Assembly (NCBI GenBank): GCA_030651135.1
Contig: JAUSCS010000013.1
Coordinates: forward strand, 124,001 to 188,000
DNA: 64,000 bases
Source: Candidatus Woesearchaeota archaeon
GTDB lineage: Archaea > Nanobdellota > Nanobdellia > Woesearchaeales > JACPBO01
Direction: 5' to 3'
Below, piece after piece: positions 30 to 54,112 of the stretch. Position 1 is the first letter of the stretch, and the number at the start of each line of letters is the position of its first letter. The notes beneath the pieces were generated by a model. The model saw only the letters and a list, made by a program, of their open reading frames with translations. It did not search any database and had not been told where the DNA came from. Both the position numbers and the translations under genes were made by a program.

Positions 30-170
30 CTTTCCCCCTCTTTTCAAGTGATTTACTGGTATTTATTAATGATCTCTTACAAAAACCAACATCAAGCCAT
101 ATTTAAAGTTTTGTGCTTTGAATAATATATATCGCAAAAATAACTTTGAATGATTTAAATTAAATTGCTT

Positions 171-241
171 ATTCTCCTTCAAACTCTACCAGATTGAAAA
201 CCTTGTAATTATTTTCCAGTAATTTGTTCTTTCTTTTCAAT
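171..241 (-). repeat. Duplicated 3' end of apt (copy A)
   Basis: These 71 bases match 1070-1140 (the real apt 3' end) at 65 positions. Read on the minus strand in the apt frame, the copy still encodes the last codons of Apt (KNKLLENNYKVFNLVEFEGE) followed by TAA. Most differences are synonymous third-position changes, so this copy has a coding history: either a formerly intact second apt or an incoming apt tail from a relative. The Bro-N gene ends inside the copy in another frame. Confidence 0.9.
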
Positions 242-17825: not shown

Positions 17826-20800
17826 TGAAATCACGCCCAACTTCAGAAACAGTGGATGAAATAGTTGATTTTATATTAATACACGAAGGCCCAGATTTAG
17901 ATAGACGGGCGCATCATAAGAAAAAACGAGTTCGATATGCAGATTTAGATGCAGCACTAAGCAGGATCCATCAAGAAGGACTTTTGCTTGATTTAAAAGA
18001 TTATCATTTTAATTATATTTTAAATATATGGAGTGCAGATAGAAGAAATGGCAATCCTTTAGGAAGAGAAATGACTGGTTTATTAATAGAGAGATTAAAG
18101 CGGAGATATGGCTCTTTGATTGAAGTTATAAAAAATATAAAAAAAGATGATTTCCATAATGAAGAGTTTGAATTCAAAAATAAAGATGGTGTCGTAAAAT
18201 ATAACCCAATACAGATGTTGCAATACGTTTATGCAAATTCTCCAAGCACAGCAGTTACAGATTGGCTACAAAATAATCCTGATGAAGAAGTAAGAAAAGA
18301 GTATGCTGGAATAAAACCATGGCATTTTGCAAGAGTTCCTTTAAATACATGGAAAGGAGAAGAAGGCAAGAAGAATGGAAGAGAACTGACAGGACAGCTG
18401 ATAGAAAGGCTAAAGCGGAGATATGGCTCTTTGATTGAGGTCATAAAGAACATAAAACAAGATGATTTTTTAAATGAGCAGTTTGAATTCAAAAATAAAG
18501 ACGGCGTCATAGAATACAAGCTGGGACAGATGTTACTATCTGATTATGCAGGTTCACCCACTGCAGCAGTTACAGATTGGCTACAAAACAATCCTGATGA
18601 AGAAATTCGCAAAGAATATGCTGGTATAAAACCATGGCATTTTGGAATGGCTCCTAAAAATACTTGGCAAGGCGAGGAAGGTAAGAAGAATGGAAGAGAA
18701 CTGACAGGACAGCTGATAGAAAGGCTAAAGCAGAGATATGGCTCTTTGATTGAGGTCATAAAGAACATAAAACAAGATGATTTCCATAATGAACAGTTTG
18801 AATTTAAAAATAAAGATGGGGTCATAAGCTATGATTTAGAACAAATGTTACTTAGAGTTTATGCAGATTCTCCAAGCGCAGCAATTACAGATTGGCTACA
18901 AAACAATCCTGATGAAGAAATTCGCAAAGCATATGCTGGAATAAAACCTTGGCATTTTGGAAAAACTACTCAAGGTAGTTGGAAAGGAGAAGAAGGCAAG
19001 AAGAATGGAAGAGAACTGACAGGACAGCTGATAGAAAGGCTAAAGCAGAGATATGGCTCTTTTATTGAGGTCATAAAGAAGATTAAACAAGATGATTTCC
19101 ATAATGAAGAGTTTGAATTTAAAAATAAAGAGGGCATAATAAGGTACAATCTATGGTCAATGTTAACCTATGTTTATGCAAATTCTCCAAGCACAGCAGT
19201 TACAGATTGGCTACAAAGCAATCCTGATGAAGAAATTCGCAAAGAATATGTTGGAATAAGGCCATGGCATTTTGGAATGGTTCCTCAGGGTACATGGAAA
19301 GGCAAAGATGGGAAGAAGAATGGAAGAGAACTGACAGGACAGCTGATAGAAAGGCTAAAGCAGAGATATGGCTCTTTTATTGAGGTCATAAAGAACATAA
19401 AACAAGATGATTTTTTAAATGAACAGCTTGAATTTAAAAATAAAGATGGCATAATAAGGTACAATCTATGGTCAATGTTAACCTGTGTTTATGCACATTC
19501 TCCAAGCACAGCAGTAATGGACTGGATACAAAACAATCCTAATGAAGAAATTAGCAAAGAATATGCTGGTATAAGGCCATGGCATTTTGGAATGGCTCCT
19601 TTGAATACATGGAGAGGTGAAGAAGGCAAGAAGAATGGAAGAGAACTGACAGGGAAGTTAATAGGAAGGCTAACGCAGAGATATGGTTCTTTAATTGAGG
19701 TTATAAAGAATATAAGACTTGATGATTTTCATAATGAACAGTTTGAATTTAAAAATAAAGAAGGCGGTATAGAATACAATTTATTGTCGATGCTAGGTTA
19801 TGTTTATGCAAATTCCCCAAGCGCAGCAATTACAGATTGGCTACAAAGCAATCCTGATGAAGAAATTCGCAAAGAATATGCTGGAATAAGGCCATGGCAT
19901 TTTGGAATGGCTCCTAAAAATACTTGGCAAGGCGAGGAAGGTAAGAAGAATGGGAGAGAGTTGACAGGACTTTTAATAGAAAGATTAAAGCAAAGGTATG
20001 GCTCTTTGATTGAAGTTATAAAAAACATTAGACAAAATGATTTTCATGATGAGCAATTTGAATTTAAAAATAGAGATGGTGTGATAAGATATAATCTAGA
20101 ATCAATGGTGGTGATTGTTTATACAAGTTCTCCAAGTGCAGCAGTAATGGACTGGGTAAAACACCAGCCAAAGCATATAAAAGAAAAATACTCATTTGTC
20201 AGACCTATACATTTTATTGGCTCAACAGAGACTAGAGGAAGAAGATTGACTGGAAAATTCAGTGCTTATGATTTATCAAAAATCAAAAAACAAAAGACAT
20301 ATGATACCTCGATATTTGGCTTTACCCAGTATCACTCTAGTGATAAGGGGGCAATAAGGGATATAATGGCTGAAGAAGCATCCAAAGTTCTAGGAGACAC
20401 TAGTATTGCTTATTTAGGTTTAGAAACAGAAAGATTCCAGAGTTTATTAAGTGTTTATGAATTGCTTAATCTTGATAGTTTCTCATCCACTATTATTGAG
20501 AGAGCTATAAGAGTTTATAATGCGATGAAAGCAGTACAGCAAAGAAAAATGCACGGAAAGGCTCTAAAGGGCATAGAGATAATCCACAACAGTTTAGATA
20601 AAGAAGTTAGTCAAATGCATGATAGAAAATACAACTATGTTAACTACGACTTCACTGGCCACCTGAGCCAGGACAAAGAAAGAGCAATAGGAGCTTTATT
20701 TGAGAATAACTTGCTGGCAGATACTGCTGTTATTTATATCACTTTACAGGAAACTGAATTATCAAAAGAAAGAGCGAAGAGAGCAGGTTTTGAAGATCAA

Positions 20801-47788: not shown

Positions 47789-47859
47789 GTTGAAACTGTC
47801 TGGAGAAAAAAGAGCGCTAAACGAAAAGTTTATATTTAACTACTCAATACTAGTGAATT

Positions 47860-48564
47860 ATGTTTAGAAAAGGAATAGAGGGCATCACAAAAGATGCGCT
47901 AAAGGAAATCGAAAATGGGCACATTCATACTTCTGAAAGAGATAGGCCAGGAGAAACTTACGTCAAAGTGAACAAAGGGTATAGAGTATATTTTGAACAC
48001 TATGGCCCCCGCCATATTCCTCCGCAGATAACCGGCATTTATAAAAAAGAATCCTGTGGTGAAAGATTTAGCAGAAGGACAAGAAGATTTATTCATAATT
48101 TAAAATATATGAAAACAAGCCACGCTCTTTTGCTGGCCAGTGCAACTATTTCTGTTTTTTCAATGTTCTATCTTATGGGACCACCTTCGCATAAAGAAAA
48201 ACTTTTGTCTCTTCTGCTCCCCGGGCGTGTTGAATATAATGATGGAAGCATAGTTATGAAAGGTGTTAGAACAAGGTCGTCAAATGGAACTAAAGAAGAA
48301 TGCGACATTATCTGGAATCCCGGCGAGTGGTTAACATACCAAAAAGGAGGCCTACAAATTGAAAGAGAAGGAGTTGGAAAACCATGGGACATGTCTTGGG
48401 GGGAAAGAGGTAATTTTTATTTGGGAACGCATGATAGAGGCACTATTGAAGGCCAGATGACCCGAGATGGTGTTAAATACAATCAATCTCAAGGGGCAAA
48501 CAGGCAGATTCAAGGAGAAGAAATAACTTCGAAAGACAAGAAGATTGAAATCAAAGATTATTAA
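47860..48564 (+). CDS. Hypothetical single-pass membrane protein
   Basis: 234 residues. N-terminal ~85 residues basic and soluble, then one membrane helix (~91-108, HALLLASATISVFSMFYLMG) and a beta-rich external or internal domain (VEYNDGSIVMKGVRTRSSNG; DIIWNPGEWLTYQKGGLQIE). No family recognised. TATA-like TTTATATTTAAC (47829-47840) lies ~25 bases before the ATG. Confidence 0.6.
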   Translation: MFRKGIEGITKDALKEIENGHIHTSERDRPGETYVKVNKGYRVYFEHYGPRHIPPQITGIYKKESCGERFSRRTRRFIHNLKYMKTSHALLLASATISVFSMFYLMGPPSHKEKLLSLLLPGRVEYNDGSIVMKGVRTRSSNGTKEECDIIWNPGEWLTYQKGGLQIEREGVGKPWDMSWGERGNFYLGTHDRGTIEGQMTRDGVKYNQSQGANRQIQGEEITSKDKKIEIKDY

Positions 48565-48592
48565 GCTAGTATAAATGTTATTTAGTGAGAAA

Positions 48593-48922
48593 ATGAAATG
48601 CTTTACATGCGGAAAATCGGAATTAGTCAGGAAAAAATCAGAATATATGCAGTTTGGAATGAGCCTTGGCAGATTCGATGCTTTAGTCTGCCCGCAATGC
48701 AGGGAAACTTTGTTTGAAGGCAACGTAAGCGAGCAAATTGAAAAGAAGGCAAAAGAACTGGGGATCTGGGGCTTAGCGAGAAAGACGCGGATCGGCACTT
48801 CAGGATCGTCACTTGATGTTAAGCTACCAAAGCAGATCGCTGAATTCTTGGGCTTAAAAAAGGGCCAGGAAGTTGTTATAGAGCCCACAGCAAAGAGGAA
48901 GATAGAGATAACGGTGGTTTGA
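48593..48922 (+). CDS. YgiT-type zinc finger plus AbrB protein
   Basis: 109 residues from ATG 48593 (GTGAGAAA upstream). Two CxxC pairs (KCFTCGKSELV; LVCPQCRETLFEGNVSEQIE) form a YgiT/MqsA-type zinc finger. The C-terminal ~45 residues (SSLDVKLPKQIAEFLGLKKG; QEVVIEPTAKRKIEITV) are AbrB-type. The fusion resembles antitoxin/regulator proteins; no toxin gene adjoins. It precedes the restriction-modification gene by 60 bases and may regulate it. Confidence 0.85.
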   Translation: MKCFTCGKSELVRKKSEYMQFGMSLGRFDALVCPQCRETLFEGNVSEQIEKKAKELGIWGLARKTRIGTSGSSLDVKLPKQIAEFLGLKKGQEVVIEPTAKRKIEITVV

Positions 48923-48982
48923 TTTATTTCTGAATTTTTAATAAAAAGATTAATAAAGAACAGATAAAATAATTGCATTGCA

Positions 48983-51679
48983 ATGGATAAAGAAAAAACA
49001 AAGGCAGAAATAAAGGAACTTATTGATAAGTACAATAAAGTTGTAGAAGAAAAAAGAGTTAATAAATACAATGAAGAAATGACTAAAAAGGATTTTATTC
49101 TGCCTTTATTCCGTGCTTTGGGCTGGAATATTGAAGAGTCTAACGAAGTTTCAGCAGAAGAAAAAATCTCTAAAGGCAGAGTGGATTATTCTTTCAGGAT
49201 AAATGGGATTCCTAAGTTTTTCTTGGAAGCAAAAGCTTTGAAAGAGGACTTGGATGACCCTAAATTTATTGAGCAAACCATAAACTACGCATGGCATAAG
49301 GGCTGTACTTGGGCGGTTCTTACTGATTTTGAAAGCGTTAGGATATTTAATGCAGAATGGAAAAGTGCTAATCCTTTACAGGCTCAATTTGGGCAATCAT
49401 TGCCTTGCCATTTGTTTTTAGAGAGATTTGATCAATTATGGCTTTTGTCAAGAGAGAGCTTTGAGCAGGGTTTGATAGACAAAGAAGCAGAAAAATGGGG
49501 AAAGAAAACTAAAAAGACTTCTGTTGATAAACAGCTTTTGGCAGATTTTACTAGGTTCAGGGAGTTGCTTTCCAAAAACATAATGAAGCTTAACCAAAGC
49601 AGGAATTTAAAAGAAGAAGAACTAGACGAGTCTATCCAAAGGATTTTGGACAGATTGATTTTTATAAGAAACTGCGAAGATAGAGAACTAGAAGAAAGAA
49701 AATTATGGGAAGCTAAGAACGAAGCAAACATCCTTAAAAAGCTCAGGGAAGTTTTTGTTTATTTTGATAAACAATACAACAGCAAAATCTTTGCCAATCA
49801 TTTATGCGATAGTTTGGGTATAGATAATGAGGTTTTACATGAAATAATTGAAGGAATATATCACACCAAAGATAAATCAGTTTCTTACGATTTCTCAGCT
49901 ATTGAGGCAGATGTTTTAGGCAACATTTACGAGCAGTATCTAGGGCATATTTTAAAGAAAAGCGAAAAAAGGGCAAAACTTACAGAAAATCACGCACATA
50001 GAAAAGAGCAGGGAATTTACTACACACCCACTTACATAGTGGATTATATTGTAAGAAACACTTTGGGAGAATTACTCAAAGATAAAAATATGAATGCTGA
50101 AAAGATAAGGATTTTAGACCCTGCCTGCGGCTCTGGTTCGTTCTTGATTAAGGCTTTTGATGTTCTGAACGAACACTACTCAAAAAATGACAAAGACTAC
50201 AATCAGACAAAGCTGGACTTGAAGACAGGAACGCCATTTACAACAAAAGTAAAAATTTTGCAGAATAATATTTTTGGCGTTGATTTGGACAAGCAGGCAG
50301 TTGAAATAGCGCAGCTTAATCTTCTATTGAAAATCGCAGAACGAGGGCATCGGTTGCCTTTGCTTCAGCAGAATATCCAGAATGGAAACAGCCTAATTGA
50401 TGACTCAAGTATCGCAGGTGATAAAGCTTTCAATTGGAATGAGAAATTTAAGCAAATAATGGACGAAGGTGGTTTTGATGTTGTTATTGGGAATCCGCCG
50501 TATGGTTATCGTGGAATTCCAACTCCTGAAATAAAGGGAGCGTATGGCAAAAAATATGTAACCGCTGAAGGTAATTTTGATATGTATCGCTTCTTTATCG
50601 AACGTTCGATTAATCTTCTGCGGGAAGGAGGAACACTGGGTTTTATCATCCCTAACACCTTTTTAACTGCAATATCATACAAAAAATTACGAACGTATAT
50701 CCTTGATAACTGCACCATAGAAGAAATTGTGGATGTAGGCTTAGCCGTTTTTGAAGGAGTGACAGTTGAGAGTATTATATTGATACTCGAAAAGAATTCT
50801 GTCAAGAACGAAAGAAATAGACAGAATGTCAGTATATCCATCTGTCGCTCAAGAGATAAGTCCATAACCGACCCTACTAGCACTTACTTTATATCTCAAT
50901 CAAAATTTAACGAAACGAAAGACAACAACTTTAACATTTATCTAGACCAGAAGACAAGCCACATAACTAAAAGGATTGAAAACAGCTCGGTATCTCTTGA
51001 AAAGATAGCCTATGTAACTGTGGGGATAAATACGGGTTACATAAAAAACGTTTTGGTGGCCAACAAGAAGGTAGACAACAGATACCATAAACTTCTAAGT
51101 GGAAGGGACATATCTCGGTACTTCCTTAAGTGGCCTGGGCAATGGATATTATACGATAAAAAAGTTGTAGACAGTTATGGGGACAAAGGACGAACATTAC
51201 CTGATGAATCAATCTTTAAAGAAGATAAGATACTTGTACAAAGAACAAGAAGAGGTATGGCAAGAAAACTTATCTGCACTCTTGATAACGAGCAGTACTA
51301 CAATCTCAATAGGCTTGGCAATATAGTAATGCGAGACAAAGGTTTTTCATTAAAGTACTGTTTAGGTATCCTAAACTCAAAGCTAATGGATTACTATTTC
51401 CAAAAAACGTTTAATGAATATGAAGTAAAACCTGCACACCTACGGCAGCTACCGATTAAGCAAGTCACTCTATCTCAACAGCAACCCCTAATAAAACTTG
51501 TAGATAAAATGCTCTCCCTAAACAAACGCCTAAACGAAATCGGCGAGAAGAAGACAGATGAAAGGGCTAAAATCGAGGAAGAAATAAAGAAAACTGACGC
51601 TGAAATTGACGAGCTTGTCTATAAGATTTATGACATAACTACAGAAGAAAAGAAGATCATTGAGGAGAATTTGAAATGA
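48983..51679 (+). CDS. Type IIG-like restriction-modification protein
   Basis: 898 residues combining nuclease and adenine-N6 methyltransferase. An N-terminal PD-(D/E)XK domain shows KISKGRVDYSFRINGIPKFF and LEAK (Asp68, Glu82, Lys84). The methyltransferase has motif I DPACGSGSFLIKAFD (~378) and catalytic NPPYG (~503). A C-terminal target-recognition region follows (NRYHKLLSGRDISRYFLKWP; AHLRQLPIKQVTLSQQQPLI). Resembles Eco57I-type enzymes. Its last bases recur at two further gene junctions downstream. Confidence 0.93.
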   Translation: MDKEKTKAEIKELIDKYNKVVEEKRVNKYNEEMTKKDFILPLFRALGWNIEESNEVSAEEKISKGRVDYSFRINGIPKFFLEAKALKEDLDDPKFIEQTINYAWHKGCTWAVLTDFESVRIFNAEWKSANPLQAQFGQSLPCHLFLERFDQLWLLSRESFEQGLIDKEAEKWGKKTKKTSVDKQLLADFTRFRELLSKNIMKLNQSRNLKEEELDESIQRILDRLIFIRNCEDRELEERKLWEAKNEANILKKLREVFVYFDKQYNSKIFANHLCDSLGIDNEVLHEIIEGIYHTKDKSVSYDFSAIEADVLGNIYEQYLGHILKKSEKRAKLTENHAHRKEQGIYYTPTYIVDYIVRNTLGELLKDKNMNAEKIRILDPACGSGSFLIKAFDVLNEHYSKNDKDYNQTKLDLKTGTPFTTKVKILQNNIFGVDLDKQAVEIAQLNLLLKIAERGHRLPLLQQNIQNGNSLIDDSSIAGDKAFNWNEKFKQIMDEGGFDVVIGNPPYGYRGIPTPEIKGAYGKKYVTAEGNFDMYRFFIERSINLLREGGTLGFIIPNTFLTAISYKKLRTYILDNCTIEEIVDVGLAVFEGVTVESIILILEKNSVKNERNRQNVSISICRSRDKSITDPTSTYFISQSKFNETKDNNFNIYLDQKTSHITKRIENSSVSLEKIAYVTVGINTGYIKNVLVANKKVDNRYHKLLSGRDISRYFLKWPGQWILYDKKVVDSYGDKGRTLPDESIFKEDKILVQRTRRGMARKLICTLDNEQYYNLNRLGNIVMRDKGFSLKYCLGILNSKLMDYYFQKTFNEYEVKPAHLRQLPIKQVTLSQQQPLIKLVDKMLSLNKRLNEIGEKKTDERAKIEEEIKKTDAEIDELVYKIYDITTEEKKIIEENLK
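51644..51679 (+). repeat. Junction repeat, copy 1 (3' end of the restriction gene)
   Basis: Starts GAAGAAAAGAAGATCATTGA and ends TTGAAATGA, where the stop overlaps the next ATG. 32 of 36 bases match 52201-52236, and the end matches 53742-53765. Confidence 0.85.
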
Positions 51680-52236
51680 GTGAGATAGAATCCATCATAG
51701 ACTATTTTAAGAATGAATTATCTTTGTTATCTGGTAATTTTGAACAACTTGAACAGGAAAGAAAGTTCAATATGAGCCTAATAATTCTTGTTTTCTCAGC
51801 CATTGTTGTATTATCTTCCTCATTGTTTCAATCTTTTTTACAACTAGAATTAATTTTATTATACCCAGGAAGTATTTTTATTATTAAGTTAATCTTATTT
51901 TTAATATTGTTTTTTATAATAAGCTTTATTTTTTTAAACACATATATTCCTTATAAAACTAATAAATTTTATTTTGATATGAAAATAAAACTCGAAACGA
52001 TTCTAAAGTGTTTATTTTATTTTAAAGCGATAAAAATAGATAGCAAAAATGTGTCTTTGCTTACAGATAGACTAAAATTTGATTTATGGGATAATAGACC
52101 CAAGAATATTTTTAAAAGGAAAGATTATCAAAAATATGAAAATTTGAGGTTAAAAGAGTATTTACAGGTAATAAGTAAAATCAAAAACAAATTGGTCGCT
52201 GAAGAAAAGAAGATCATTGAGGAAAGCCTGAAATGA
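51676..52236 (+). CDS. Two-helix membrane protein inserted after the restriction gene
   Basis: 186 residues. Two membrane helices (~34-85: LIILVFSAIVVLSSSLFQSF and KLILFLILFFIISFIFLNTY) followed by a basic cytoplasmic part. Its last codons (AEEKKIIEESLK) duplicate the restriction gene's C-terminus (TEEKKIIEENLK) at DNA level, so it looks like a cassette inserted at that gene end. Overlaps both neighbours by four bases. Membrane partners are common in defence systems; role unknown. Confidence 0.7.
   Translation: MSEIESIIDYFKNELSLLSGNFEQLEQERKFNMSLIILVFSAIVVLSSSLFQSFLQLELILLYPGSIFIIKLILFLILFFIISFIFLNTYIPYKTNKFYFDMKIKLETILKCLFYFKAIKIDSKNVSLLTDRLKFDLWDNRPKNIFKRKDYQKYENLRLKEYLQVISKIKNKLVAEEKKIIEESLK
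52201..52236 (+). repeat. Junction repeat, copy 2
   Basis: GAAGAAAAGAAGATCATTGA, then GGAAAGCCTGAAATGA. It ends the inserted membrane-protein gene and overlaps the DUF1016 start, exactly as copy 1 overlaps the membrane-protein start. Confidence 0.85.
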
Positions 52237-52775
52237 AAAAACTAACAAATCCGAAAGACTATTCTTCATTAATAACAGATATAGGCTCTTTACTCGAGCA
52301 AGGCAGAAAGCAGGCATATCAGGCAGTTAATACAATTCTTGTCAGAACATACTGGGAAATAGGTAAGAGAATAGTTGAATTTGAGCAGCACGGAAAAGAA
52401 AAGGCAGAATACGGCTCTGCGCTTTTGGAAAACCTTTCCAAAGACTTGAAACTAAGGCATGGAAAAGGGTTTAGCAAAAGCAATCTGATATACATGAGGC
52501 TGTTTTATCTTAAATACAAAAAAAGTGAGACGCTGTCTCACCAATTGTCATGGAGCCATTATTTTGAGCTTCTAAAGATAGAAGATGATTTAGAAAGGTC
52601 ATTTTATGAAATAGAGCTATCAAAAAAAAGGCAAGTTATAGAAACTGCCAAAGATTTGATAAAAGATCCGTATGTGCTGGAATTTCTGAAAATACCTGAA
52701 GATTACAGCTACTCTGAAAAAGAACTTGAACAGAAGATTATTGATAATAGTACAAACTTAACGAAAACTTTATAA
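52233..52775 (+). CDS. YhcG/DUF1016 protein lacking its nuclease domain
   Basis: 180 residues matching the YhcG (DUF1016) N-terminal domain: YQAVNTILVRTYWEIGKRIV, KAEYGSALLENLSKDLKLRH, LSHQLSWSHYFELLKIEDDL, KDPYVLEFLKIPEDYSYSEK and ELEQKIIDN. Full YhcG proteins (~340 aa) continue with a PD-(D/E)XK nuclease. Here the frame stops (NLTKTL) where that domain should begin, and the next gene's TATA box overlaps the end. No remainder is visible downstream. Probably a truncated gene. Confidence 0.85.
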   Translation: MKKLTNPKDYSSLITDIGSLLEQGRKQAYQAVNTILVRTYWEIGKRIVEFEQHGKEKAEYGSALLENLSKDLKLRHGKGFSKSNLIYMRLFYLKYKKSETLSHQLSWSHYFELLKIEDDLERSFYEIELSKKRQVIETAKDLIKDPYVLEFLKIPEDYSYSEKELEQKIIDNSTNLTKTL

Positions 52776-52816
52776 ATAACTGCACTATAACATTAAACAA
52801 ATAAGAGGTTGCTAAA

Positions 52817-53065
52817 ATGGAGTTCATCTCATTAAAAAATGTTTCTTTAAACTCGAAGATACTTTTACTAAAGGAATTAGGCTATAACTCAGATGGTGAG
52901 TTTGTTGTAGGTTCTGATGGGAATAAGGTAGTGGACAGGTATCTAAACATACCAATAATGGTGAATAATATGGTAATTTTTCCTGGTAGCGAAATTATTT
53001 TGGACGATAATGAATTAAGTATTTCTTCCTATATACAAGAGTTTGGAGAAGATGTCCTCGAATAA
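52817..53065 (+). CDS. Small hypothetical protein in the defence island
   Basis: 82 acidic residues (SLNSKILLLKELGYNSDGEF; NIPIMVNNMVIFPGSEIILD). No family recognised. TATA-like ACTTTATAAATAA (52768-52780) precedes it by ~30 bases, and AAGAGGTTGCTAAA carries a ribosome-binding site. It overlaps the next gene by 14 bases. Confidence 0.6.
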   Translation: MEFISLKNVSLNSKILLLKELGYNSDGEFVVGSDGNKVVDRYLNIPIMVNNMVIFPGSEIILDDNELSISSYIQEFGEDVLE

Positions 53066-53732
53066 TCCTGTCTCTGATGCTGCTGAGGGTATTACAAAGG
53101 GGGTTTTAGAATGGTCTTCTGAGAAAATAGCTTCGTGGGTAAAAAAATTTAGAGATAGAAAACTTGCATTTATACAAGACCAAAAAACAATAGAGGTGGT
53201 CAAAGAGCAATATAATTCTGGTGAAACAAAATTTTACAAAAATTACATAAAAGATGAAAAACTTTTATTTCTTGTAAGATTAGGGTTAACGCTAAGAAAG
53301 TTAGAAGAAGAAGATGAGAGGCTACATAATCTTAGAGGTAAAATTTTTAAAAAATATAATGTAGAAGGATTGCATATAGCGGAATTTGCTCAAAATGGTG
53401 TGTTGAACATGTATGTAGGAATTCTTTTAGAGGAACTAACTTCGATACAAAAACTTGAAGATGATATAGGCGAGCTCTTGAAAAATATAGAGAAATATAC
53501 GCTTTTTGTTCAAGGAACAAGTAAAAAAGCAGATGTTATAAAAACTGTAGATGTAAAGGCAAAATCTCATTCGCCAAAAATTTTTATTATTTCAGGTTTT
53601 AAACAAGCGGCTAAACTTGTTTCAGAAAGCGTAGATTCGATTAAGATCATTCTGGAAGATTATGATTTTGAAAGATTTAGTGGTGGAGAAAAAGAGATCT
53701 TATTTTTTAAAAAGAAAAAACCAGCAACATAG
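53052..53732 (+). CDS. Hypothetical helical protein in the defence island
   Basis: 226 residues from ATG 53052 (TTGGAG just upstream). Mostly helical with charged segments (ITKGVLEWSSEKIASWVKKF; LGLTLRKLEEEDERLHNLRG; LLEELTSIQKLEDDIGELLK) and a C-terminal beta part (KIFIISGFKQAAKLVSES). No family recognised. Coupled to the 82-aa gene by overlap, so the two probably act together. Confidence 0.6.
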   Translation: MSSNNPVSDAAEGITKGVLEWSSEKIASWVKKFRDRKLAFIQDQKTIEVVKEQYNSGETKFYKNYIKDEKLLFLVRLGLTLRKLEEEDERLHNLRGKIFKKYNVEGLHIAEFAQNGVLNMYVGILLEELTSIQKLEDDIGELLKNIEKYTLFVQGTSKKADVIKTVDVKAKSHSPKIFIISGFKQAAKLVSESVDSIKIILEDYDFERFSGGEKEILFFKKKKPAT

Positions 53733-53741
53733 CAGAGCAAA

Positions 53742-53765
53742 ATTAATGAGGAAAGCCTGAAATGA
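53742..53765 (+). repeat. Junction repeat, copy 3 (partial, non-coding)
   Basis: The 19 bases TGAGGAAAGCCTGAAATGA are identical to the end of copy 2 and again finish on the ATG of the next gene. Here it follows a stop codon and is not coding. Confidence 0.75.
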
Positions 53766-54100
53766 CTGAAACCGGAATTAAAATCGAATTGGCAAAATCT
53801 TGGTTTATAATGGCCCAACTAACAATGATATTGGCTGGGTTTTTGTTTGCAACAGGAGGAGTTGCATGGACTAATTCTTTGAATTCCTTGAACTTCGGGT
53901 TTAATTTGATTAGTGATGTTTGTCAGAATTTAAATAAAAGTGCGATTCCTACTGCATCGTATGCAGATTTAGTACCTAATTTGGTGACTAGCCAAATTGA
54001 GCTAGCTAGATTTTGTATTTTATTTGGAGTCATAATGACCATCATCTCTCTTCTCTTTTTCATAATCGGGCAAACACAATTAAGAAATAGCGACAAATAA
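53762..54100 (+). CDS. Small two-helix membrane protein
   Basis: 112 residues with helices at ~15-37 (WFIMAQLTMILAGFLFATGG) and ~83-105 (FCILFGVIMTIISLLFFIIG). The loop between has one Cys. No family recognised. It starts on the third junction repeat, so it was probably once, or elsewhere, the gene behind a restriction-gene end. Confidence 0.6.
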   Translation: MTETGIKIELAKSWFIMAQLTMILAGFLFATGGVAWTNSLNSLNFGFNLISDVCQNLNKSAIPTASYADLVPNLVTSQIELARFCILFGVIMTIISLLFFIIGQTQLRNSDK

Positions 54101-54112
54101 TTATTAAGATTT

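Follow-up and report, generated by a model that had tools for sequence, protein, structure and literature searches.

Why should the end of a restriction-modification (RM) gene be found again at the junctions between the genes that follow it? This question is raised by an archaeal DNA stretch of 64,000 nt (the window), in which an island of accessory genes, all co-directional, extends from a cupin gene to ileS (47789-54112, plus strand, as for every island feature below). Mobile elements of DPANN archaea are poorly known, and the island offers a readable record of accessory-gene gain, exchange, and loss beside a restriction enzyme. A genome of the same genus (G001) lacks the island, with the cupin and ileS genes abutting on its contig C42 at 88-92% identity on both sides and no DNA between them. 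Transposon ends at the island borders were rejected, as the edges show no clear target duplication and only a 6-bp match. An insertion sequence or transposon is not indicated either, given that no transposase family was found among the eight island ORFs scanned and that the duplications described below vary in length (25-148 nt). Nor did these island ORFs include an integrase family, as would be expected of integron gene cassettes.

The RM gene (48983-51679) encodes a single chain of 898 aa with family matches to PF07669 (E 6.7e-44), PF02384, PF12950, and PF04313. The combination within this chain of a nuclease, an N6-adenine methylase, and a target-recognition domain (HSDR_N, N6_Mtase/Eco57I, and TaqI_C) predicts a type IIG-like layout. 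Its final 11 codons and stop, with GAGGAG and ATGA, form the first copy of a junction sequence, or seam (copy A, 51644-51679). Copy B (52201-52236), an RM tail with GAGG and ATGA that serves as leader of a DUF1016 gene, matches A at 32 of 36 positions, the four mismatches all being transitions confined to positions 24-28. Copy C (53739-53765), the leader of the last gene, matches B at 24 of 27 positions and is identical to it over a 19-base core (53747-53765). All three copies close with an ATGA that overlaps the ATG of the next ORF. An earlier note on this DNA had reported the RM gene end to be repeated at the end of a membrane-protein gene, and the match was confirmed, since A finds nothing better than 25/36 when the window's mononucleotides are shuffled 30 times; no further A-like site within 10 mismatches occurs elsewhere in the window. 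The note's partial repeat before the last gene holds for the 19 identical bases, which are shared with B (chance expectation for C of 0.04 with up to three mismatches allowed), but not as a repeated gene end, as the preceding gene does not run in frame into C but has its own stop two codons earlier.

The segment between A and B (51680-52200) is the body of a membrane-protein ORF of 186 aa (51676-52236; flank-repeat score 26), which has its start codon within A and continues in frame into B at its C-terminus (ending in LVAEEKKIIEESLK). The GC content of this segment is 23%, as compared with 37% for the window, and no clear homologue of the ORF's protein was found in 353 genomes of the order. 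The DUF1016 gene behind B (52233-52775) is, judging from its family match and from a 339-aa copy at locus L035 (71% identity), truncated and internally deleted by 34 codons, with its N-domain largely kept (DUF1016_N, E 9e-40) and its nuclease domain mostly lost (YhcG_C, 2-35 of 157 only). It is followed by two accessory ORFs without family matches, of 82 aa (52817-53065) and 226 aa (53052-53732), and by the last gene of the island, encoding a small membrane protein of 112 aa (53762-54100). A homologue of the latter in G347 (L092; 31% identity, E 3e-14) likewise follows an RM tail via ATGA. Could the repeats simply reflect chance, or common coding of a conserved C-terminal motif, as the earlier note had itself considered? 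The RM family does have a common C-terminus, IYGITEEEKKIIEESLK, and yet such an origin is exceedingly improbable: the nucleotide identity is far above that of shuffles, the membrane protein carrying one of the other copies is not RM-like, C lies outside a gene, and many RM tails among the relatives are tiny stand-alone ORFs.

In these relatives, the same junction is followed by unlike genes. RM 3' tails without an RM gene (solo tails) were found in about 30 of the 353 genomes of the order, typically directly before unrelated accessory genes, and they are present in further orders of the class too; a degenerate tail pattern gave 59 matches, versus one for a reversed control. Depending on the relative, the genes behind the junction encode BRO, DUF1016/YhcG, Cas4/RNase H-like, SIR2-like, HEPN, small membrane, or zinc-ribbon proteins. 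One and the same right-hand gene can also be found with unrelated left sides (DUF1016, c28, 109-aa gene), and a right-hand gene marked by MTxEFNKKV occurs behind RM types that are just 37% alike. The direct joining of RM to DUF1016 that the earlier note had predicted exists, by ATGA, in G118 (L099), and G053 (L035) has a version of the junction with an internally deleted RM gene. The comparisons turned up no close relative in which RM-DUF1016 occurs without the membrane gene; the whole island is missing from G001, and L099 is distant. Compared with the RM tails ahead of DUF1016, B matches at 34 of 36 positions in L099 and 33 of 36 in L035; its being closer to the L099 tail than to A is at odds with insertion by target duplication. 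Gene order is not the same in all relatives, and the swapping of accessory genes at a fixed stop/start junction, as originally suggested, is supported. Because the final RM codons recur between unrelated neighbour genes, the comparisons show what appears to be repeated insertion or exchange of genes at exactly the RM stop/start point, in this archaeon and in dozens of its relatives.

The common seam also offers an explanation for how unrelated genes could be swapped and still be translated. Overlaps by ATGA or GTGA with an ORF of at least 50 aa characterize 22 of the 30 full RM genes, as opposed to 27 of 269 control ORFs (p 1e-13). Moreover, at the Glu codon giving rise to GAGG, GAG is used in 32 of 39 overlapping tails and in 17 of 30 other tails, while GAG makes up 24% of the Glu codons in the same RM genes (p 6e-14 versus RM genes). 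There is thus a statistical case for GAGG as a putative Shine-Dalgarno (SD) signal, and since the tail has this conserved GAGG together with an overlapping ATGA, any gene docked there would receive a start signal; we infer that the overlap also provides translational coupling. As evidence of such coupling, in-frame upkeep of eroded RM genes was not significant (5 of 8, with N-terminal relics searched in all frames). Coupling by termination-reinitiation at ATGA overlaps has been described for genes with the same 4-nt stop/start overlap and an SD motif inside the upstream gene (PMC6728339). There, however, it is a property of stable gene pairs, whereas here the overlap itself would be copied and reused. 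No description of gene-end duplication at a stop/start overlap was found in the literature searched.

Gene-end duplication around an inserted gene had been claimed for a second place in the window, and this example is real. The apt gene (adenine phosphoribosyltransferase) has its 3' end at 1068-1140, and a second copy of this end lies at 169-241, both on the minus strand, with a minus-strand BRO gene (209-1081; Bro-N, PF02498, E 9e-12, weakly DinD-like) inserted between the first copy, ahead of it, and the second, a displaced or duplicated apt end, behind it. BRO genes were found in 204 of the 353 genomes of the order, with several copies in many. Flanking direct repeats of 25-148 nt are carried by 17 of 97 BRO genes, the other 80 having no detectable flanking repeat; the corresponding counts are 10 of 311 for control ORFs (p 8e-6) and, as a further control for the BRO count, 11 of 1481 for swapped pairs. 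These repeats sit at gene boundaries, including the apt 3' end, the pelota 5' end (with BRO fused to the first codons of pelota), and convergent 3' ends, and a layout of RM tail, BRO, and tail occurs in L032 and L140. For the BRO gene of L193, there is an empty site: its flanks lie ~60-100 nt apart in G300, G301, and G303, and the target was found as a single copy in the congeners G300 and G301. Empty-site comparisons gave no BRO-free allele for L234 and L208.

We consider it fairly probable that single-gene insertions at gene boundaries duplicated long stretches of target, that the RM 3' end was one such target used repeatedly, and that recombination and decay followed. The three repeats would then be copies of one seam, namely the RM 3' end with its GAGG...ATGA serving the next gene, and a new gene entering at the seam would retain seam sequence on both its sides. 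The 23%-GC membrane gene would have gone in between RM and DUF1016, giving seams A and B, its own entry presumably being by target duplication, and DUF1016 with its neighbours would have been placed before an older resident gene (seam C). The mode of entry was probably the one seen in the BRO family, including apt-BRO-apt, where a target of long and variable length is duplicated at the boundary of a gene. Such insertion may be tolerated because the newcomers keep a start signal and, via ATGA, translational coupling. Later recombination among seam copies would exchange downstream genes, a crossover inside the seam being shown by L079, L036, and L110 (see below), and RM bodies would often decay, leaving solo tails. 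Overall, long target duplication on insertion, combined with seam recombination, accounts for the data better than a clean cassette system. Insertion with long target duplication is described in connection with RM systems (Nobusato et al. 2000, as cited in PMC3031569), and the likeness, as far as that citing account goes, is a long, variable target duplication without IS ends. Long direct repeats of this kind surround the membrane gene (A/B, 36 nt) and the 17 BRO genes noted above. In the cited account, however, it is RM genes that become inserted, and the hosts are bacteria, whereas here RM is the target in an archaeal host, BRO and further accessory genes act as guests, and the seam would provide the guest's start codon.

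The main rival to this reading, which we regard as unlikely, is a displacement resembling that of Rhs/CDI orphan modules, in which an incoming fragment of RM plus accessory gene recombines within the conserved RM tail and the old accessory gene is pushed downstream with its own copy of the tail. In most arrays, the solo tail is not nearest to the RM tail of its own genome, usually being nearer to those of other genomes, so that displacement of older RM alleles fits at least as well as fresh duplication. Recombinants whose breakpoint falls cleanly within the tail occur as well: L079 and L036 are alike on the left (81%), L036 and L110 on the right (81%), with the other flanks at random level, and L032 and L090 have only the left side in common. 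Furthermore, tail plus gene recurs as a unit (DUF1016, c28, c14, c44), and RM genes that are closely related diverge in the specificity part and have a tail block of ~180 nt in common. The layout is that of the orphan modules (PMC3150448; Jackson et al. 2009), in which swappable 3' modules follow a conserved sequence and displaced ones each keep a piece of it, just as solo tails here keep part of the conserved upstream sequence and the recombinant trio has recombined through it. Unlike those modules, which are toxin tips of one protein, the exchanged units here are whole separate genes behind a stop codon; there is no toxin/immunity pairing, and no family matches to C-terminal toxin domains with immunity genes were found among the proteins scanned. 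Against displacement, the solo tails have variable left ends (about 8 to about 60 codons), so that each join must be illegitimate on at least one side; this same variation led to the rejection of a site-specific, att-like core. Moreover, BRO genes show the same layout at apt, pelota, and further genes that do not act as hubs of recombination.

It is also conceivable, but quite improbable, that RM-accessory units once stood in tandem and that all RM bodies but one were deleted, leaving their tails behind. RM starts are fused to tails, or lie just before them, in L035, L081, L084, L085, L095, L110, L136, and L137, and some solo tails are explained by simple RM decay, as the eroded remnant of an RM start lies immediately ahead of eight of them. 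However, the loci read included no intact tandem RM pair, tails B and C have no upstream RM start, B forms the in-frame end of an unrelated gene, and the in-frame excess of relics is not significant (5/8).

Returning to insertion with target duplication, the findings on BRO suggest a simple and testable class of mobile genes, a fraction of which show long target duplications, with one verified empty site and no transposase seen. We tentatively propose, as a possibility somewhat short of an even chance, that in these DPANN archaea BRO (Bro-N/DinD-like) genes, along with other accessory genes, move singly as mobile elements that lack a transposase. Upon insertion at a gene boundary, they would duplicate 25-150 bp of target, such that the host gene stays intact and the guest captures a start signal, and RM 3' ends, having one tail in common, would repeatedly serve as a docking site at which guests accumulate and are exchanged through that tail. 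The tail pattern was absent from the viral contigs searched, and phages and plasmids yielded only distant RM relatives (<60% identity). The accessory genes rhuM, dinD, DUF1016, and rlo are found near hsd, embedded in type I RM loci. Similarly, the RhuM, DUF1016, Bro-N, SIR2, and HEPN families associate with RM genes here.

The 3′ end of the single-chain, type IIG-like restriction-modification (RM) gene serves repeatedly as a stop/start seam where unrelated genes come in and are swapped. This gene (48983-51679) encodes HSDR_N, N6_Mtase/Eco57I and TaqI_C domains, and its final 36 nt (copy A, 51644-51679) are matched at 32/36 positions by copy B (52201-52236), which ends a 186-aa membrane ORF and, translated in frame, forms that protein's C-terminus (...LVAEEKKIIEESLK). 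Nineteen bases of copy B recur exactly (53747-53765) within copy C (53739-53765), which is placed after the stop codon of the preceding ORF and ahead of the last small membrane gene. Each copy ends in an ATGA shared with the following ORF. An earlier note's claim that the restriction gene's end recurs at successive junctions was borne out, the best match of copy A in shuffled windows being at most 25/36 (30 trials). The A-to-B DNA has a GC content of 23%, below the window's 37% and the RM gene's 36%. Compared with a 71%-identical full copy, the DUF1016 gene after copy B has an internal deletion and is missing most of the nuclease domain. Within the window, copies A and B are more alike (32/36) than A and C (23/36), suggesting, from only two intervals, that the newest guest may be the RM gene's neighbor.

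The contig that contains the window is 272 kb long, and the whole genome 1.4 Mb. A same-genus genome, G001, is 88-92% identical to it around the island site and is without 47789-54112, its cupin gene directly adjoining ileS. The small gene ahead of the RM gene (48575-48922) has zinc-ribbon and AbrB/MazE-like features and is possibly a regulator or antitoxin.

The seam is real and general in this archaeal group. The genomes compared are mostly fragmented assemblies. At E <= 0.01, an RM tail profile matched 74/353 genomes of Woesearchaeales; searching with a degenerate DNA pattern gave 59 matches versus one with the reversed control. Tails without an RM body ("solo" tails) occur in ~30 genomes as tiny ORFs or fusions to other genes, a few at contig ends; other orders of the class also have them. 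Named records containing relatives of this RM gene are mostly Candidatus Woesearchaeota, the rest being a single Nanoarchaeota and a small number of bacterial MAGs. As the same note had anticipated in proposing that accessory genes are swapped at a fixed junction, the genes after tails vary, including Bro-N (BRO), DUF1016/YhcG, Cas4/RNase H-like, SIR2-like, HEPN, RhuM (starting 37 nt after the tail), small membrane and CxxC proteins, and the predicted direct joining of RM gene to DUF1016 was found in locus L099 (RM-ATGA-DUF1016, without the membrane gene). Locus L035 reads internally deleted RM-ATGA-DUF1016-tail-gene. As in copy B, the tail is fused in frame to accessory proteins in L140 (ribbon-helix-helix-like) and L110 (235 aa). 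In one genus (L079, L086, L089, L110), the RM island lies between iron-permease-like and winged-helix-like genes, its right edge marked each time by a decayed RM tail.

The tail also appears to carry a start signal for its neighbor. A 4-nt overlap with the next ORF occurs in 22/30 full RM genes versus 27/269 other ORFs. The Glu codon that forms GAGG in the tail (...IIEESLK) is GAG in 32/39 tails with an overlapping ORF versus 17/30 without; outside the tail, these RM genes use GAG for 24% of their Glu codons, and the tail's remaining Glu codons are mostly GAA. This pattern fits a ribosome-binding signal for the neighbor gene located inside the RM gene. Such overlaps in archaea have been shown experimentally to produce tight translational coupling (PMC6728339), and coupling at the RM seam is probable.

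Judged from flank comparisons, tails act as crossover points, since flanks are shared on one side of a tail and the same gene follows unrelated left sides. For example, locus L036 shares its left flank with L079 (81% over 180 nt) and its right flank with L110 (81% over 200 nt), the other comparisons being at shuffled level and the common part being an 87-nt tail. L032 and L090 share the left-hand BRO-tail and differ on the right. DUF1016, c28, a 109-aa gene and MTxEFNKKV each follow unrelated left sides, the RM genes in the MTxEFNKKV case being only 37% alike. L104 and L147 encode RM proteins ~37% alike yet have near-identical tails and the same next gene (82% in DNA). Copy B is slightly nearer to the L099 tail than to copy A, and solo tails are often nearer to foreign RM tails than to their own genome's, as expected if Rhs-like displacement by homologous recombination (PMC3150448) contributes. 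RM decay is also a source of solo tails, since an eroded RM start lies upstream of eight. Mini-ORFs joining the RM N-terminus in frame to the tail, with the catalytic body deleted, occur in L035, L081, L084, L095 and L110, the deletions in some cases coinciding with short stretches of similarity shared by both ends.

How guests enter is less firm; the leading explanation is that single-gene units would do so by long target duplication, best seen for BRO. The second gene-end duplication claimed for this window held up: the 73-nt end of apt (adenine phosphoribosyltransferase) flanks a BRO gene on both sides (1068-1140 and 169-241, minus strand), and the insertion (169-1140) also occurs, further decayed, in G001. 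BRO genes occur in 204/353 genomes, often in multicopy. Direct repeats of 25-148 nt flank 17 of the 97 copies with enough flanking sequence (L158 and L161 represent one insertion that two species inherited; L032 and L140 are RM-tail cases), versus 10/311 control ORFs (L035, L083 and L136 among the ten being RM-tail loci) and 11/1481 swapped flanks. The repeats sit at gene boundaries, either at the 3′ end of a co-directional or convergent gene or at a 5′ end with the first codons included. In L234, the first 18 codons of pelota are joined in frame to BRO, and pelota remains intact after it because its upstream and start region was duplicated (1906-2004 and 2874-2972, reverse complement of the locus). 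In L193 (genome G302), BRO and an acetyltransferase-like ORF lie between hypA-like and PEP-synthase-like genes; congeners G300, G301 and G303 are without BRO, their flanks ~60-100 nt apart, and one copy of the target was found in G300 and G301. The same anatomy is known from bacterial RM systems inserted with long target duplications, as cited from Nobusato et al. (2000) in PMC3031569. The membrane gene, with A and B on either side, shares the layout of repeat-flanked BRO genes; a pre-insertion allele for A/B was not found in a close relative. Elsewhere in the window, a tandem array (18096-20098; 315 bp x 6.4 copies) lies within a large minus-strand ORF.
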